From: Heliocidaris erythrogramma
Lineage: Eukaryota; Echinodermata; Echinoidea; Camarodonta; Echinometridae
Assembly (NCBI GenBank): GCA_025617745.1
Contig: CM046854.1
Span: forward strand, 63,693,606-63,757,605
DNA length: 64,000 bases
Direction: 5' to 3'
The position numbers were made by a program, and so were the translations under genes. Positions 6,257 through 64,000 of this stretch are shown one piece after another; the first letter of the stretch is position 1, and every line of letters begins with the position of its first letter. The notes below the pieces were generated by a model, which was given only the letters and a program-made list of their open reading frames with translations, was not told the DNA's origin and did not search any database.

Positions 6257-6735
6257 TTGATGAATAATCCCCTAGAAGATGTTGATCCAGACTTGCATGT
6301 ATTTAATTCTCCCCAATCTTCATACTATCTACCTTCAGAGTTTAATGTAAAGTTCTCATATAATTCATCTCTAAGTCTTATCCATTTTAATGCCCGAAGT
6401 TTACAGACAAACCTTGAAAATATTTCTCAATTCTTGTCAATGATAAATCATTCTTTCTCTTTTATAGCAATTTCTGAAACTTGGATATGTGATACAACCT
6501 CAGTTAATTTCAATCTAGATGATTATAATTTTTTGAATGTTAACAGGATATATATGGACGAGGGGGTGGTGTTGCGCTATTTGTGAAAAAAGATATACTA
6601 TATACTGTAAGAACAGATATCGTTTATAATCAAGAGTCCATTTTAACATGTGAATATTTGTTTATTGATTTCTCATATGTAAACCACAAGAGGTCTACTC
6701 TTGTGTATCAGGATCAAATCATGAAATATTTTTAT
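6257..6735 (+). pseudogene. Non-LTR retrotransposon (LINE) endonuclease fragment, frameshifted
   Basis: The conceptual product from about 6257 reads like the start of an AP-type (APE) endonuclease domain of CR1/L2-like non-LTR retrotransposons. It has a LIHFNARSL block (about residues 41-49), then a hydrophobic stretch and ISETW, whose Glu matches the conserved catalytic ETW of this family. The frame then breaks at about 6555-6585. It resumes in another frame as GGGVALFVKKDI, the expected GG(G)VAL(Y/F)V block downstream of ETW. A degraded counterpart of the usual YRPPN motif may lie near 6700. The rest of the endonuclease and all of the reverse transcriptase are missing, the sequence giving way to the inverted repeat at 6747. 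This is a dead 5' fragment just upstream of POLR2H. The family assignment is by motif order only. Confidence 0.75.
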
Positions 6736-6926: not shown

Positions 6927-6999
6927 ATGGCCGGAGTTTTATTTGAAGATATTTTTGACGTGAAGGACATCGATCCTGAAGGAAAGAAATTCGATCGAG
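6927..6999 (+). CDS. POLR2H: RNA polymerase subunit RPB8, exon 1 (residues 1-24)
   Basis: The exon encodes [20 protein letters not shown] followed by KFDR, matching the conserved N-terminus of RPB8 (known as POLR2H, ABC14.5), a small subunit common to nuclear RNA polymerases I, II and III. The ATG at 6927 has a good context (A at -3, G at +4) and is the family's start residue. An open upstream extension to an ATG at 6750 has no family support and runs through repeat DNA. The exon ends one base into codon 25, at a GAG|GTAAAAG donor (intron begins at 7000). RPB8 folds as an OB-like beta barrel and sits on the side of RPB1/RPB3 in the assembled polymerase. This exon supplies its first strand region. 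The next coding exon is 35.3 kb downstream. Confidence 0.96.
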
Positions 7000-8168: not shown

Positions 8169-9014
8169 TTTTTATGCCTTTTTATGGCCCATGTATGCAT
8201 ATGGGAGGGACGATGAACTGTTTAGATTTTGGGGTGTCAAGGTCAAAGGTCATAGAGGTCATTTTATATACATAAAAATGGTTCGTTCTTGTGATAACTT
8301 AGGAACCGTTTGCCGGATCAACTTCTAACTTGGCCCATGTATTCTTATGGGAGGGATGATGAACTGATTAGATTTTGGGGTCTCAAGGTCAAAGGTCATA
8401 GAGGTCATTTTATATACATAAAAATGGTTCGTTCTTGTGATAACTTAGGAACCGTTTGCCGGATCAACTTCTAACTTGGCCCATGTATTCTTATGGGAGG
8501 GATGATGAACTGATTAGATTTTGGGGTCTCAAGGTCAAAGGTCAAAGGTCATAGGGGTAATTATGTACATAAAAATGGTTCGTTCTTGTAATAACTTCAG
8601 TTGTTTGACAGATCAACCTCTAACTTGGCCCACGTATGCATATGTGAGGGATGATGAACTGATTAGATTTTAGGGGATCTCAAGGTCAAAGTTCAAAGGT
8701 CATAGAGGTCATTATATACATAAAAATGGTTTGTGATGTATGGAGTCTAGGCCTACCTATTTTAGAAATTTCAAGGGGACAGTGGTCTATTTGCTATAAA
8801 ATATCTATTTCCTTGGTGTATTTGATGATTGTAAGTCATCAATGGTAATTAAAATAAAATGAAATAAATTTTCTGTCTCCTGTGCTTTTGAAGTGAAAAG
8901 ATTTGTAATTTTGATGGACCAATCCTTTTTAAAGTGTTCATGTATGCCATACATTGCCAATCTGATGATGGCGGAGGCATAAATTCCGACCGGGCGTGGT
9001 CGGAGATTCATCTA
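8169..9014. repeat. DR1-rich tandem element, copy 1
   Basis: The core has about four units of roughly 146 bp (for example GTGATAACTTAGGAACCG at 8291 and 8437). Each carries GATTTTGGGGTCTCAAGGTC and one or more AGGTCAAAGGTCA direct repeats (perfect at 8240-8252, 8386-8398, and triple half-sites 8532-8551). The right end is GGCGGAGGCATAAATTCCGA plus a GACC-rich hairpin. The second copy at 41311-42290 has the same order, which fixes this as one element type. It is non-coding. Confidence 0.85.
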
Positions 9015-16612: not shown

Positions 16613-17265
16613 GCCTCAAAACCTACAATAAGTCGCACGGACCACAACGTAGCAAACAGCCCAAAATAGTAAATTTGCTTGGATCAGTCGATTTTATGTT
16701 TTTGATAGAAATGGGTAGTTTCATTATCATTCTATCATGTCTCAAGTTTGTGAGTCGTAATTCGACTTAGAAATATGTTTTGGGGGCATTTTAAAATGAC
16801 TCCTTTTTTTCACCTGTCGAGCTAATGAATGTTTGGAGAGCTTTTGTAATACTTTCATTCAATGCCAAACTACTACTTTACCTCTAAAGGTATTAAATTG
16901 ATTTTTGGAGTGAGTAATGAATAGGTCCTCCTGGAGCAGTGTGCCAAAATTCAGCCTAATCTGATAATCCCTTCATACCGGTTGCTATGGCCATTTGAAT
17001 ACCCAGTTTTACTTGGGCGCACACAGAGAGCGAAGGTTTAGCACTCTTTTGTTCCGAACTTAAACGGCCATTTTCTCTGAATAGGAGTTATTGATTGCTG
17101 GTTACATACTGATTCTAAATGTGATATTTAAAGGTGTTATCATTGAGTAAACTAGGCAAGTGATATACCATTGGAAAGCTGAGAATCTCCACTTTCAGAT
17201 AATATATAAAACAAAAAAATAATTTTGGCGACTTATTGTAGGTTTTGAGGCGTCGGGTCACATAT

Positions 17266-41310: not shown

Positions 41311-42444
<1,134 letters not shown>

Positions 42445-52599: not shown

Positions 52600-54715
52600 G
52601 CTGTTGCTGTTGCATTTCATGCAGGGGACATATCTACTATAATGATAATCTTCCAAACTAACATAATAAGAATGAGAAAGCTCACAAATTATTTTTTACC
52701 TTTCCCAGAACTCACCCTTTTCTTTAGAAAGAAAGGAAATTAAATAAAACAGTCATTTTGTCTGAAAATTAACCTTTTGGATAGCCATATCTTCCTTTTT
52801 TCTTTCCTGTAAGAGAAGTAGGATGGGTGGAACACTCAGTTGCTTCGAGGAAGTAAACCTGGATATCCATACATGTTTGATAAGACTATATTCCTTGTAA
52901 TACTCCTGATGTGAATTAGTGATTAAGATGAATCTCTTGATGTAGTCTAAATGATAGGCTAAGCAGCCTTACTTACAGGATAAATATTATATTGATATAT
53001 ATATACATAATTCCTACTTAAGGCGATTTTTTTTTTTTCGGCGAAATATTCAACGGAAGGGGGAAGCCGATGTTAAGTCGCATTTTTTGATTTGCCTTAA
53101 TGTTTTTGGCACTGTTATTTCCCATTTCCGTAGGGGTAGGAGGCATTCTATCGATATAAATGTAGAGAGTGCCAAATTACTTATATTACTACAAAGTTTT
53201 GTTCGGTAGAGAGAACTCATTTTCGTATAATATAACATGGAAAATCTATATTTGTATAACTCCTGGGTATAAATGTCCTAAGTTGGACTTAGGGCGATGT
53301 CTGTTTTTCTTGATTATATCAATAGTTTGGGGATTTACTAAAAATACCTTATCGCATACAAAAGGTAGTTGTGCGATTCATTTTTTTTCTCAAAAATGCA
53401 AATTAAATCAAATTAATTCTAAACATATACCAACATTTTGGATCCATTAATTCTCTTTAGTGTCCTTTTTGTGATGATATACGTTTATACAATTTTTTTT
53501 TAAATGCCTTTTTGTAGGATCTAGGTGTATATATAAATTCTTTATTTTTTGTATTTTTGGCAAATACACTTTTCTGAAGTAGGTGTTTGTAGTTCTAATA
53601 CCCCAGTTTCATGTATTGAAGGGAAATCTAACGGTGATAGGATGTTCTGGAGGGAAATGAGACAAATCAGAGAAATAGATTAGTGAAAACTTTGAACAAA
53701 ATCAGATGAATAGTGAGATTTTAAGAAATCACTTCACATGTAAGAATTTCCAATTTTGAATGTAGTGGTGTATAAGTGTGATAATGATGGAGGACAGTTG
53801 TACCATTTGCTGCCTGCAACACACAAAATGACTTATAAAACACAAGTTTTGAATCCTTTTTAGAGGACCTGTAAGAAGATGCTATCCATTAGACATGTAT
53901 TTGGGTCATTCCATGGGGTTGGGGCAAAAATTATGACAATATCCATGTAACACTGGTTTGAGATCTTCTGGATTATGAAATCGTCTGTTGAAGATTTTTA
54001 TGCAATGAATATGTATAGTGGTGCCCAGCCAGAATCATGTCCGTTTCAGTTGGTACTATTTCAAAGCTTTGCTTAAAATGCATTTCTATTTTTTTAACCC
54101 CTATTACATGGACATCACATTTATATAACATTACATACCATTTTGGTCTGCCATACTGATTCATCATGAAGCTAAATTATTTCTCAACATATTAAAGTGG
54201 CTATGCTTTTTACACTGAACACAAATTTAGCAAACATTGTTATGGTCGATAAGAGACATGGTTCCTCACTTCTGGTATGTCACAAAAATTGTCCCATCTC
54301 AAATATGGCATTAAATTAAGGGGAAAACTTCATTTTGAAAAGAAATGGAAATTATGCATGATATTTTAGTATACCACATTACATGAAAACTGTCACTTTG
54401 GTGTCCAAAGATATTTACATATCGTATAGATTTTAAGATATAAACATTTCTAAAACTTGCTTTTTTTCTCTCTTTTATCTGGATAGAAACTGAAAAGAAC
54501 AGAGTCTGTCATGTACCCTAACAATTTATTTTTTATATGATTTTGTAGGTCCATTTAAAAGGTAAAAAGTAATGTAAAGTCTGAAAGAAGGTTAGTAATG
54601 AAGAAGGAAGTAAAAGGTGCATCCTGCCTGGGATGCAAAATGCTTCCTCTCAAAACACAAAGATACTTGTATCACACTTTATCAAACTTATAGCATTTGA
54701 TTGATGTTTATTCAT
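52600..54715. other. Intronic sequence, no gene seen
   Basis: AT-rich. A weak resemblance to the AGGGAAAGTCCACC family appears at 53624-53720 (GAGACAAATCAGAGAAATAG). Confidence 0.4.
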
Positions 54716-54735
54716 GAATGGGAGAAACTCCACTG

Positions 54736-55093
54736 CTGATTGGCCCTCTGAAGTTCCAGGGCACACTTCCTCATGACTGGTGCATTGCTACAGACTCCTC
54801 ATTGGTGCACACTGCACAGTGCATAAAGATTATGAATATTCATTCCTTTGCATTGCTTCGTGTCAGTGGCTTGCATGCTCACACACAATGACTTGTATGC
54901 ATTCTAGCCTCATGAATATCGATAAGGAAGGTTCCCCTCATTGCATTGGGTATGCAGCCAGTTAGCTTATGAATATGCATGAGTGAAGTTGCTCTCTGTC
55001 GGTTGATTGGGTGAGTCATGTGTCACATGGTGAGTCATGTCGAGCTGGATGATGCACTGGCCTATATATAGCTCCATACCTGTCTGAACAAGC
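54736..55093 (+). promoter_or_regulatory. TATA promoter with CCAAT, POU-like and AP-1 sites inside intron 2
   Basis: Seen: four ATTGG (inverted CCAAT) boxes at 54739, 54801, 54945 and 55006, all in one orientation. Three POU-like palindromic motifs: ATGAATATTCAT (54832-54843), ATGAATAT (54912-54919) and ATGAATATGCAT (54969-54980). Two perfect AP-1 sites TGAGTCA (55012-55018, 55031-55037). TATATATA at 55063-55070. A CAGT initiator follows, whose A at 55094 puts the TATA start at -31 and the proximal CCAAT at about -88, textbook spacing. Such density is unique in this window. Octamer plus CCAAT plus TATA is known from sea urchin histone promoters, but no histone follows. It is either the promoter of an unknown intronic transcript or the U3 of a solo retroviral-type LTR. 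Confidence 0.6.
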
Positions 55094-55334
55094 AGTATCC
55101 ATAGCTTGCTGCACTGGGAGAAACAGTACACGTTGGAGGTTCTCTCTCCGCCAAAATTTGATCTCATTTCGGAGTTGGTTGTTGAGGAATCTGGTTGGGG
55201 TTGAGTCAAAGCTCTTTACTGCTGGAAAATGGCCACCATCTTTGTATATTCCAGAGGATATTTGCCTGGTATTGGATCACATATTATAATATCACTCCTG
55301 CCGTCATGATGCAATATATTCTGGTGTTTCAGTG
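55094..55334 (+). other. Candidate first exon downstream of the intronic promoter
   Basis: From the predicted start at 55094 to a plausible donor TG|GTATGT at 55335. The first ATG (55229, context GAAAATGG, strong) opens a 26-codon frame, MATIFVYSRGYLPGIGSHII.., ending in TGA at 55309. Its stop overlaps a second ATGATG (55306) that opens MMQYILVFQ into the donor, a hydrophobic start that could be a signal peptide if a later exon continues it. A perfect C/EBP-type palindrome ATTGCGCAAT lies just after at 55344-55353. No later exon is recognised before 58.7 kb, so this exon is hypothetical. Confidence 0.3.
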
Positions 55335-55399
55335 GTATGTATGATTGCGCAATCGCTTATTTTATGTGCCAATACTTGTTTGTGCAGGGTTTATTTGTG

Positions 55400-57020
55400 T
55401 TCTGTTTTAAAAGACAATAGAATAGTAAAGGTCAATCCTTTTTTGCCGATGCTTGTCTAGTTTATTTTCACCATTAATACTGTTAGATTAATATATATAT
55501 ACTCTGATTCGTCTGTTCTTTTTCCCTGTTCTCTGGTGATTATTTTTTTTTACATTTAGATGAAGAATGTCCACTGAACACTGATGAAAATGCAAATATT
55601 TTTTTTTTAGGCCTATACATGTAATTCTATTTAGATCTAGATCTATTTATATATTTTATTTAATTTGATTTCATTATCAAAATTGGATGTTAGATCTAAG
55701 TAACAGTTACATTGTCCAGTCGTGACAGTAGATCTACATGTACATAGATATATCTCTAGGATCATGTTAGTTTATCTAATTAATGTTCAATTTTGCTTTG
55801 AACTTCTGAAGTTTGATAATTGAACATGCGAATCAAAGCATTATGAATGTTGGATTCAGATAGGCAGTTTCCATCAAGTTTCTTTCAATGTGCATGACAT
55901 GCTTGTTTTTTCTGGATTGTTGCATTAAAAAAAATAGTTTTTTAAATTGTAGGTCTACCAAACCACTGTCACTGTTTAATGTCTGTACACTTTGGCTATA
56001 CTTTATATTTGAATGTAAAAGAGGAAATTGATGTTAATTCTAAATCAATCTCCCTGTAAACTTTGAGCAAGACACAGAGAGGTCTTCAGCACTTCTATCA
56101 GTGAATTTGAGAATTGTTATTCTAAATGAGTCAAATTTCCTACAGCTTACTCAGAATGTGAAGAAAGTGGATAACTGGTCATTTTTAAATATAGACCTAG
56201 ACCTATATATTCAAATGTACTCAACATATATAATGTAATTTTAATCATACTATTAGCGAAGCATCACAAATTGAATACAATGAAGCAAGCCAAGGTGTAA
56301 TTTATTAGAAACAATTTAAAAGCACCCATGGTGCTGATGGAGAATCGATTCAAAGTAGAAAGAAAAATGATAATTTAATACAATGAAAACTTCATTTTAG
56401 TCTTTTTGTGATAAAAATGATAAGCATTTTTTTAAACTTTGGGGGGGGGGGAGGAAAGAGAAGGGTCAGCTTTATAATCATAATCACTCATAATCCATGA
56501 GACATACATATAAAGCCGATAATAGATGTAGGAGAGGCACCCTGCTTATTTCATTTTATGATTCCCTTCAGACCTCTACATTTTTAATCTTTCTTTGTTA
56601 GGTGATATTTGATAACTACCAGATGGCTAATATAACACATATCCTTGTTAAGTTATAAGGGTATGCTTTTCCTTTAGTTTCCATGGAAAGCTTGCTGTAT
56701 CTACCAGCACAAAAAAGAAGTGTATCAAAGGATCTTAGCGGTGTATAAAGATGGGGGTATCCAGATGGCAATGTGATGTTAGTATAGTAGCTCACTCTTT
56801 TGAAATGTATACATTTAAGGGTACATGTATGTGTGTAGGCTTAATGTAGCATTATAAAGGAAACATAGATGCCATATTTATATTCAGGCAAACATAATAC
56901 ATGTACTTTGCTGATGGTGGCTACATACATGTATACAAAGCCATATAGGCCTACCCTATATTTTTTTTCAAACAAATCTGATTTAACTTCTTTTCTTTTG
57001 CTGGTCCAAATGCATTGGTT
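55400..57020. other. Intronic sequence, no gene seen
   Basis: AT-rich, AGATCTAGATCT-type motifs near 55632-55645, G run near 56441-56450. No later exon of the hypothetical 55-kb transcript is recognised. Confidence 0.4.
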
Positions 57021-58764: not shown

Positions 58765-58945
58765 GTGACAAATTCCGTCTCGTTTTGGCGACGACGTTAC
58801 GTGAGGATGGTTTCCCCGATGAATCAGACTACACACCATTAGACGACGGTCAACCAAGCCGAGCAGATAGCTTTGAGTATGTGATGTTTGGCAAGGTGTA
58901 CCGGATCGAGGGCGATGAGAGTCTCACCGAAGCTGCCACCAAATT
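58765..58945 (+). CDS. POLR2H: RNA polymerase subunit RPB8, exon 3 (residues 53-112 plus part of 113)
   Basis: The 181-bp exon gives [40 protein letters not shown], and [20 protein letters not shown], plus two bases (TT) of a Leu codon. This is the central RPB8 segment with its hallmark SRAD-FEYVM-GK-YRIEGDE block. The acidic loop before it ([14 protein letters not shown]) is variable across the family. The acceptor is CTCTCCTAG and the donor AAATT|GTAAGT. The remaining about 38 residues (normally beginning SAYVSYGGLL and ending KKLAF) are not found by reading 58946-64000, so the last exon lies outside the window. The minus-strand frame over the same place is a shadow. Confidence 0.97.
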
Positions 58946-61900
58946 GTAAGTTTATTTTGCAATTCTGGAAAACCCCAAAGATGGGGCTTATCATTACCAG
59001 GTTCCTAGGACACATGAGCAGTAAAAAATCCACACCCTGTGACCCTAAAATTATACAGTTGAGACCCTAAAAACAATCCACCCGACCGCCAACAACTAAA
59101 GAAATTTGGGTTGAGGCCCGATGTAGGCCCAGATTTTACAAACTCTCAAACATTACTATTTTAATTCCATTCTGTTTTATTTGTGATGATATAAAAAGTG
59201 TGCAAAAAAGAATTGAAGCTCAAAAAGGAACAAACTAGAAATCAATTTTCCTTGGCCTTATCATCACACCATTCATATGTGAATCGTCCAATAAATCCAC
59301 ATGAAACTTCCTTCTCTTTCTCTCACAAAACGCAATGATGTGTTCGTAGGATATTTTAGAAGTTTGTAGGAGGTGCATATAGATAGATTAGCTGGAGGTA
59401 CACACACACACCATACAAGTAGTTCCAGCTGGGAGTTTGGATCGAATGCCACCGTCAATAACCAAAGCCAAACTTCCTGATGGCTATCCAGTATATGAAT
59501 ATTCTGTGATCCTTTTTATATCTTCTTTGTACCCCTGCAAGTTTCACTTTCTAAATGAATAATTTTTTGGAGGGGGTTTATATGTAATGACACTGGCCAG
59601 CAATAGCTGTATTCTTCATCAAAACCCTCCATATTAATATTGGAAGTGTCTATCAGACACATGGATGCCTTTTGTTCAGTATCCTTTTTTGTAGATTCTA
59701 GTGCTTCCGCTCAATACCAAAAGTTCCCAAAGCAAGGCAACTGATTAAATACGGCATCCCCTTCTTACCATCCATGCTCCTTTTGGGGGTGGTTTTTTTT
59801 TCATCAAAATTTAGTGGTTTCATTTTTGATAGTGTGAAGGGTTTGCATACATGCAGCTGAATACCAGCTGTACTGTACTATCAACTCTAGGTAGGATGTT
59901 AACGTTTCCAAATCAAACACTGTATCGATATTGAGATACTGTGCAGATGGTATTTAGTTTCATGTGATTTCAGCTGCATGTCTGACTCACAGACTGCAGA
60001 ATTTGGCATTGATCAGGAACAGGAATTGAATTACCCAAAAGAAAGATTAAAAGGCTGTACACCCATGGAAAAAATATTATTAGACCGAGAAAAACGACTG
60101 AAAATCTTAATTTTTGTGGCAAGAAGAAATAAAATCCCATAATTGGAAAGTGCAGTTGCTTTCGTATGTAAGTCATTTAATGGAAATAAAAAGAAAATTC
60201 TATATTTTTTCTTAATTACATGCATGATATAATATCCCTGTAAATGGAACTTGTTTTGATAATTTTTTAGGGCTGTATATAGCTCAACTTGAACCATGAT
60301 TCCTACTTTGAAATTTTGGGTCTGCCGGCAATTAAAAAAAATGTGCATGTATATAAAGAGGAACATGTTCCTAAAGTAAACTGTATCACATGAAGAGAAG
60401 GAATTTTAATTGCTCCTAAAAGCCACCTGCACTTACATGTATATTAGCACCTGCTGATGGTTCATTTGGTCCTGGTTTCCGTTCTATATTGACTCTTGGA
60501 ATGTGTTTCTTTGTGATATGGACCTGCGTGGGTTTAGTAACACCAAACACGTGTCGTTAGGCACCCAGCAATAGGAGGGAAGAATTGTCTTTGATAAAGA
60601 CTGATATAGTTTCAGTTTGATGGACCTTCTTCATTTCAAGGTCATCTTCTGTTCAGCTGGTGATTATGTGCAATCATGATACACCCACAGGGACTGATAA
60701 TGAGAGACTACTGTTTGTAGTTCAAGTAGCTACATGTACATGTATTTAGTGCAAGTGCCAGATCTAGTCTACGATATCTTAGACTTATTCTGACATATTT
60801 GACTGAATTCATGGTGGATGGTGCCAAGTCTAAGCCAAACTGACAATTCTAGTACCAAGAATAGCTATAGCAACATCACATGAACATGTTTGTATAGCAC
60901 TGTAGCCTACATGGTTAGTCTCTTGCTGTGAATAGTTTAGCCCCTGCATTGCGCTTGTGAGCTGGGTTTGACAGTGTCTGATATGATAGACTAGCCAGTG
61001 CATCAACCTTTGAGACTCACACCCTCCTGAGCTGATAGAGCATTCCATTGTATGATGTAATGCATGGCTGGGGAGTCCCCTTATGGATCATGTGACCTGA
61101 TGGTGTTGTTCAATGGGGGTGCAGTGTGGTGGGTGATACAGGGTTTGGGGTGTCTATACAGTGATAGTGACAATGGGGGGAGGGGAGAGGGAAGGGGGGC
61201 ATGATGAGGTACTGGACAAATGTTAATCGTTTGCTATCGTGGAAATGATTCTCTTGAATTTGGTTAGATTTTGCCAGGTTCTATTTTGATTTATTAAAAT
61301 GTTACAGTCTAAGTTTTTGGCCAAGGGTAATCATTACCAGAAGAATGGTAGGAACTCCCTCCTCTAACCTCTCTCCAAAATAAAAGAAGAAAAAAAAATG
61401 GGAAGAAAAGGTGTATCATTGCTTCAGATCGTAGGGACTCGAAGCAATTGTGCCTTGAAAAATACTGAAACTGTTCTAGCGGACCCGAGTCTTCAGGCTC
61501 TTGGATTGTTTGTAAATTTTATATTTCAGAGACAATAGTTTTTTGAATTTTGAAAAGGCCCCCCCCCCCCCCTCGAAAGAGAGAGAGAAATAAAGGGAGG
61601 ATGTTGTCGATAAAGGTATGTTTATAATGCACTTCTACATGTACACTGTACATGAATAGAAGCAATTCTGCCCTCCAGATATTCGTCAGCTTTATTATCA
61701 AGTTCTTTGTATGGCCTTTAGTTTTCTGGTTGGATAGTGTGTATCTATTCATATATTCATGTTTTCATATATTCACATATTCTTTTTTGATGATGTATTA
61801 TTTTAACGGGGATGTATTGAGGTATGGACGTGAATTCATCAGACTGATAAGACCAACAGGTGTTATTCTCATGTGTAATTTACAAAGCTGTGAATACATC

Positions 61901-62370
61901 TGCTGGTTTTTATGAGTCTGTGTGAAGTATCAACTGTCACCCCTTCGACTTCCTCAAAAATACTCCCACTTCACACCATCTTGAGCAAAGGTTATATTGC
62001 GCAATCCTTAGTGGAATGTTTGCCTTTTCTGTCGTGTTGCATTGCACTTGTAGTCAGTGGAAAAGTAGTATTATTCATATTGCAGGGCTCTACAATTAAG
62101 GGCGTGTTAGACTTCATCAATAAGGATTATAACAATAACCAGATTTTTCATTACAAGTATACATGTACCTCCTACAGAGCTCTGTCCTACTATTAACATA
62201 CATACATGTACACGAGCATACTTGAATGTACAAAATAGGAGAAAATCTCTGTATCATTGCTATCGCCTATTGGTGAGGTCTGTCCAGTGCTTTACATTTT
62301 TCTCAGGGGGCCAGGATTTAAATTTGTATAAGTTGTATGTACATGTATGAGGTCCTTGTTTGAATTTTTA
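58946..62370 (+). other. Start of POLR2H intron 3, no gene seen
   Basis: Donor GTAAGT at 58946. AT-rich with a G-rich patch near 61160-61200 and a C run at 61559-61572. No terminal POLR2H exon recognised. Confidence 0.6.
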
Positions 62371-62629: not shown

Positions 62630-64000
62630 TTGAGGTGGTGGAATAGTGTCAGCGTTTTTTAGTAGTTGGAAACTTCTGGAATTTGATTTGATACATCTGC
62701 TTTTCTGATAACAACGACACCTACCTTCTACTCCAAAATACTCCCACCTAAGACATCTGGCGTAGAGATTCTTATGTTGAAATCTCTTCGCAGCAGTCCT
62801 TTGTGGGAACGCTCCATTCTATTCAATAGACCACATTACTATTTCATGTCCATTTTATACTTGTTTCTCTTACTTTACAAGTAAAGGAAATTTGCCCTTG
62901 ACAACTCAAATGCTTGTCAAAGACTTGCCCAATATAATGCACAAATACTAAATGCAAATTGAACTAAATCAATACCCGCAAATAATTCATGAATTTTGAG
63001 ATGTAATTAAACTTATCTACATCTTTTTTAAAGTTACCTCATAGAGTAAATTCATTGTTTCTGAAAGAAGTTTCTGGACTTGTTCAAAATCTAAAGTTGA
63101 TTAATATCACTCCCCTTTGTCTTTGAGCAATACTCTTCTTCATGGTGTATCTCAGCAGTAGCCATTCAAGTTTGTCTCTGATAAATCACCCGTTTAAGTA
63201 CTCTTATACAAGTCCTTCTTTCTCTTTCTGTTTACGATTGGTAGGGGGTGATTCAAGGGTAATAAATTCATCTAAAAAGTCACAGGATCTGATCACTGAT
63301 TTCCTGTTGCCAGTCCGTGAAATTCCCACCTTGGGTTTCCTCTTATCTCACTAGACTTGGCCCTGTTTGGATCGCCCGCCATGTTGCTGGGGCACTCTAA
63401 ATATTGAATGGCAGCCGACCAGGGTCAATCAATTGCAAAATGGCAATGGTCAATCAAGATCATCGTTGCATGCACGTATTGTCCAATAGACTGACCATTA
63501 ACCAATCAGAATATCAGAATCGTTGTTTCAAATTTGCAATTTTTTGCAAACCTTTGTGTTACAAAGGTTTTCATATTAACCAGGCTGAAAATTCCCAGAA
63601 GGGGTATAAGAAAAGTAAAGTAAATTGGACCTGATTGAAAAACAAAATAAAAAGTATTAAGAAAAAGCTACATTTAGTGTATATAATATAATTTCTGAAA
63701 GTATTAAGAAAAAGCCCCAGTGAGAGTGAGTGATAAGGACATACATGTACCCCTCTGTGGGGAACTGATGAGTTTATTATTAAAGTTACTCTCATTGTAG
63801 TATGATATGTTAGACATTGTTCCTCGTGTTAGATTTCCCTTTATATAATATCCTTATTTATCCTAAATTTGCAATCAAATATTGAAGTCTGACCATTGGG
63901 TAAGGATCTCGTGAACCAGAATTTTCTCCAAATTGAAAAGTCTACAAGTCCAGGGCAAATCGAATGTTGAGAAACTGAAGAAAAATTTCAGAGTTCTGAT
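62630..64000. other. Intron 3 continued, no exon recognised
   Basis: A small CG-richer patch with GGATCGCCCGCCATGTTGCT (63369-63388) and several CAAT motifs (63424-63508) could be regulatory or a repeat. Otherwise AT-rich. No RPB8 C-terminal exon. Confidence 0.4.

Follow-up and report, generated by a model that had tools for sequence, protein, structure and literature searches.

The window, by which we mean the whole analysed stretch of 64,000 nucleotides, contains exons 1 to 3 of POLR2H on its + strand, and exon 4 follows beyond its end (Table 1). Further pieces of the same genome are designated L003 to L026; position 1 of L003 is window position 63001, and places past the window are given here as window equivalents. 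The exons were located by tblastn with a human RPB8 sequence as query. Between exons 2 and 3 lies an intron of 16.3 kb, and it is inside this intron 2 that a promoter-like cluster of motifs is found, where a preliminary description had placed it. The sequence also shows a TATATAAG at 6733, some 190 bases ahead of the POLR2H ATG; a TATA element is therefore not peculiar to the nested site, and a contrast of promoter types gives no argument. Tandem arrays with a similar unit of roughly 146-151 bp and many AGGTCA words occupy window positions 8185-8731 and 41398-41993. Past exon 4, a long inverted repeat (L003:9762-9911) scored 55.8 bits for the family MIR2606, whose cut-off is 139.7; the resemblance of this hairpin-shaped repeat to the family is probably fortuitous.

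Table 1 Features of the POLR2H locus; positions are those of the window unless another piece or contig is named
Feature	Position	Strand	Evidence or remark
Window	C2:63693606-63757605	forward	contig of a 1.06-Gb genome, 26 contigs
POLR2H coding exon 1	6927..6999	+	tblastn 88.9% over 27 aa; donor checked
POLR2H exon 2	42341..42424	+	tblastn 90.3% over 31 aa; splice sites checked
Upstream cluster	54736..55062	+	ATTGG, ATGAATAT and TGAGTCA sites; enrichment counts
ATTGG (reverse CCAAT)	54739, 54801, 54945, 55006		one strand, upstream of TATA
ATGAATAT POU sites	54832, 54912, 54969		
TGAGTCA (AP-1)	55012, 55031		
TATA box TATATATA	55063..55070	+	
Initiator-like CAGT	55093..55096	+	predicted start A at 55094
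Putative non-coding first exon	55094..55334	+	sequence reading
Predicted splice donor GTATGT	55335..55340	+	best GT of 55100-55400
ATTGCGCAAT C/EBP-like palindrome	55344..55353	+	just inside putative intron, past donor
POLR2H exon 3	58765..58945	+	tblastn 68.7% over 67 aa; Pfam PF03870 7.5e-14; splice sites checked
mir-2002 hairpin	61847-61913	+	Rfam RF03821 90.7 bits vs gathering score 49; POLR2H intron 3
miR-2002-3p	61891-61913	+	identical to spu-miR-2002-3p as tabulated in PMC4669494
mir-34	L003:4499-4571 (window-equivalent 67499-67571)	+	POLR2H intron 3, outside window
POLR2H exon 4	L003:9038-9155 (start = window-equivalent 72038)	+	

The cluster had been described as four same-strand CCAAT boxes, two AP-1 sites and a TATA box at -31 from a CAGT initiator, with a nearby donor and a C/EBP palindrome behind them, and every one of these elements is present at the positions in Table 1; a fifth ATTGG (55271) and a third TGAGTCA (55202) come in addition. 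The three POU-like palindromes that had also been claimed stand as three ATGAATAT sites, with a full ATGAATATKCAT palindrome at 54832 and at 54969 but an imperfect one at 54912. We take the ATGAATATKCAT palindrome to be a MORE dimer site of Oct factors. The cluster thus has the same kinds of binding site as promoters combining such a site with NF-Y/CCAAT and TATA, the factors being candidates assigned by consensus sequence. From the first T of the TATA box (55063) to the A of CAGT (55094) the spacing is 31 bases, so that a TATA element stands about 30 bases before a pyrimidine-purine initiator as in TATA-dependent Pol II promoters; this arrangement is weak evidence by itself, and an initiator-like word occurs at 28-34 bases in 26 of the 47 TATA-like sites found on the + strand from POLR2H exon 2 to mir-34. 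The longest ATG frame in the putative first exon, judged by eye, has 26 codons, and the frame 55053-55289 gave no Pfam match. With a simple matrix the donor at 55335 scores 2.5, similar to the donors of POLR2H exons 1 and 3 (2.2 and 2.9; exon 2 scores 5.4). Two copies of ATTGCGCAAT occur in the window, the one at 55344 and another at 61996, which is 83 bases past the mir-2002 match.

How unusual is such a cluster? Our comparison set consisted of 284 kb of the same genome, namely the window and L003 to L024, with 1,000 N and with the last 1 kb of the window repeated in L003, and it was divided into 55,144 overlapping 360-bp windows read on both strands. Three joint definitions were applied: at least three same-strand ATTGG with at least two POU words, at least three POU words, or a sum of ATTGG, POU and AP-1 words of at least six, the palindrome at 54832 contributing two POU words. 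The cluster alone satisfied them among all 55,144. Its TGCAT/ATGCA words number 11, against a background mean of 1.16 and a maximum of 9. The preliminary description had seen no parallel to the combination elsewhere in the window, which is true of the joint definitions within the whole 284 kb; the single motifs are less special: four or more same-strand ATTGG also occur at six other places (L008, L009, L010, L015, L023 and around window position 17,000), and two or more AP-1 words at L004, L015 and L021. A control scored 13,786 windows for 39 consensus motifs. After tandem repeats had been masked, the cluster took second rank among the places that do not overlap; the first, L004:4761, owes most of its score to 10 TATA words. 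Unmasked, the cluster ranked tenth, and masking drops eight of the nine higher places below it. This control was not blind, two POU words having been added once the finding was known. Because the motifs were partly picked post hoc, we attach no chance probability to the cluster. A genome search with 54700-55400 returned a single match, the query itself, match counts from this search being lower bounds, and no copies of the promoter and first exon were present in the 288 kb compared locally.

Which RNA would a promoter at this position produce? Two microRNA hairpins lie downstream in intron 3 of POLR2H, both on the host strand and 5.6 kb apart. The first, mir-2002, is the sole Rfam match over threshold in the window, folds with a z of -4.2 and matches the genome once. 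The second, mir-34, scores 52.7 bits with RF00456, just below the gathering score of 53.4 (E 7.2e-10); its mature sequence is identical to spu-miR-34 as given in PMC4669494, its hairpin reaches z values of -3.0 and -3.6, and the genome search reported no second match. When the + strand was folded in a sliding frame, the best energy fell at window-equivalent 67494, which is mir-34. Both miR-2002 and miR-34 appear in one table of PMC4669494, and the accessible passages of PMC11076791 call miR-2002 echinoderm-specific, with an eleutherozoan origin. Together with the identity of both mature sequences to those of the sea urchin, this makes an echinoderm source very probable. The predicted start at 55094 is 6.75 kb from mir-2002 and 12.4 kb from mir-34, with POLR2H exon 3 in between. 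Between the two microRNAs, another hairpin at 63700-63810 (z -4.0) has no Rfam match over threshold and no second copy in 288 kb once the stretch shared by L003 and the window is set aside; it may be a microRNA or an inverted repeat. A further hairpin about 120 bases past mir-34 was rejected (z -0.6).

We consider it somewhat probable, judging from sequence, that 54736-55094 is an independent Pol II promoter for a primary transcript carrying mir-2002 and mir-34. NF-Y at the reverse CCAAT boxes, POU dimers at ATGAATATKCAT and bZIP proteins of the AP-1 type would recruit the TATA-dependent machinery and set the start at about 55094; the RNA would begin with a short non-coding first exon ending at the donor, continue across POLR2H exon 3 into intron 3 and be cleaved by Drosha at mir-2002 and at mir-34, both of which would thereby be freed from the POLR2H promoter. 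The identity of the bound factors, a start of transcription at 55094 and the reach of the RNA as far as the hairpins are what we infer; an intronic microRNA pair with a promoter of its own is a known kind of arrangement. We favour this reading because TATA and initiator are correctly spaced and the joint cluster is unmatched in 284 kb, and because the overlapping pair of TATA-like sites at 55063/55065 has the richest upstream cluster among the 47 (10 NF-Y, POU and AP-1 words, or 9 with a single count for the palindrome at 54832, against 3 at the next place). It is further favoured because the two microRNAs share a strand and an intron with one genome match each, because POLR2H exon 3 alone passed the Pfam cut-off among the ten + strand frames scanned (out of 136), and because the fly mir-317/277/34 cluster uses alternative start sites according to the pertinent passages of PMC6066331. 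Finally, it is favoured because the order of POU palindrome, ATTGG and TATA recurs in L026 (palindrome at 359, ATTGG at 387, TATATAA at 422, then a short frame read by eye) and CCAAT with a POU palindrome in L025, a repeat whose two copies both have three CCAAT and one such palindrome; both pieces come from the listed fraction of the 2,341 places with ATGAATATKCAT followed by ATTGG at 15-45 bases and illustrate the arrangement rather than measure it. Genome-wide this pattern occurs 1128 times forward and 1213 times in reverse, whereas the reversed pattern occurs 1 and 3 times; the places listed are all on contig C1 and many are the same strings repeated, and the count, inflated by repeats, does not suffice to establish a promoter class. 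The nested, probably regulated promoter of the preliminary description fits the motifs, the position and the single genome match, but the microRNAs as its target had been missed. Deprived of them it would be an ordinary nested promoter; with them, if the reading is true, there is a defined promoter for asking how an echinoderm regulates the widely shared mir-34 apart from its housekeeping host.

Against a promoter of the microRNA pair it may be said that intronic microRNAs may simply derive from the host transcript. The distances to the two hairpins and the exon between count against it as well, as do the TATA element that POLR2H itself possesses, the sub-threshold Pfam frame past the donor described below and a rival TATAAAAG at window-equivalent 67006 (L003:4006), about 490 bases before mir-34, which has zero NF-Y, POU or AP-1 words upstream and could be a private start of mir-34. 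This rival start, close to mir-34, would equally suit an intronic enhancer at 54736-55094 acting on POLR2H or on a microRNA promoter located elsewhere, with an incidental TATA and initiator and at most short enhancer RNAs, and dense mixed binding sites are just as typical of enhancers; we nevertheless think an enhancer unlikely, as TATA and initiator stand correctly spaced at the 3' edge of the cluster and are followed by the best donor of 55100-55400. Quite improbable, in our view, is a nested gene, for a long non-coding RNA or a small protein, whose end lies short of the microRNAs. The promoter anatomy would serve it, 3.4 kb of intron 2 remain past the donor, and the frame 55864-56028 in this remainder has a sub-threshold Pfam match (PF10203, 17.3 of 24.4 bits, E 0.0059); however, all nine frames tested besides POLR2H exon 3 fall below the Pfam cut-off, nine being a small part of the 136, and from the promoter to exon 3 there are zero Rfam matches over threshold. 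On the frames scanned, a nested protein gene was rejected. An alternative promoter of POLR2H itself, with 55334 spliced to exon 3 at 58765, would make use of a donor and an acceptor in the same orientation, but it would cost a conserved polymerase subunit the residues of exons 1 and 2 in exchange for the first exon's own 26-codon frame, and we hold it to be very improbable. Weakest is a remnant of a retroelement LTR or another mobile-element promoter, which the preliminary description had named as the alternative and for which the skewed genome-wide counts of ATGAATATKCAT before ATTGG would speak: with 54700-55400 matching nothing but itself in a genome search whose counts are lower bounds, and with no copy in the 288 kb compared locally, a recent multi-copy LTR is unlikely, the repeat origin was rejected and we give the remnant hardly any credence.

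The microRNA pair itself is possibly related to a cluster familiar from flies and worms. The passages of PMC6066331 on the fly cluster give its order as mir-317, mir-277, mir-34, with members separated by alternative start sites that set the output of each, and state that the organisation is conserved in Capitella. Here, too, mir-34 lies downstream of a miR-317-like microRNA in the same order and on the same strand, with one genome match each. In contrast to Drosophila, the pair resides inside POLR2H, intron 3 yielded no mir-277 (the best candidate ortholog, rejected, reached 13/20, no better than the 12-15 of 21 background 10-kb pieces) and the seed of miR-2002-3p mismatches that of miR-317 at position 5. 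Comparing mature sequences rather than whole hairpins, we found 14 of the first 17 bases of miR-2002-3p identical to insect miR-317 as tabulated in PMC9170749, a match seen in 0 of 200,000 shuffles. Among 67 insect sequences, one per family, miR-317 is the best partner with 15/20, and miR-283 has 14; of 20,000 shuffled queries, 42 score 15 or more against some insect family. In the 284 kb, read on the + strands, two places reach 15/20 to miR-317, the miR-2002 position itself and window 56742, and seven reach 14/20; what gives the similarity much weight is solely its location, in the mature register of a known microRNA that neighbours mir-34. At E up to 10, no mir-317 model was among the matches of the mir-2002 hairpin, though Rfam may contain none. 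On these sequences we put the chances that miR-2002 is the echinoderm ortholog of protostome miR-317 at about even. The fuller proposition, that it is this ortholog, that the pair predates the protostome-deuterostome split and that it survives inside POLR2H with its own POU/NF-Y/AP-1/TATA promoter, we offer tentatively and with more doubt than belief, since it joins several claims and since 56742 shows that such a match also arises by chance. If it were true, miR-2002, a supposed echinoderm invention, would be a diverged member of an ancient cluster, and the origin of the mir-317 family and its linkage to mir-34 would move back to the bilaterian ancestor. The relevant passages of a preprint (PMC11482908) argue that fly gonads make miR-317 and miR-277/34 from separate transcripts, which is a point against a common promoter of mir-2002 and mir-34.

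Among the open-licence matches listed, none linked miR-2002 to miR-34 or miR-317 or paired it with miR-34 in POLR2H, and the pairing may be on record in subscription papers or microRNA databases. The main text of PMC11076791 contains neither POLR2H nor miR-34; its accessible passages report measurements of miR-2002, name neither its host gene nor its promoter, and mention ATAC-seq data of sea urchin embryos. The same passages describe sea urchin miR-1 in an intron of Mib1, likewise an echinoderm microRNA within a protein gene, and one for which independent regulation was considered.
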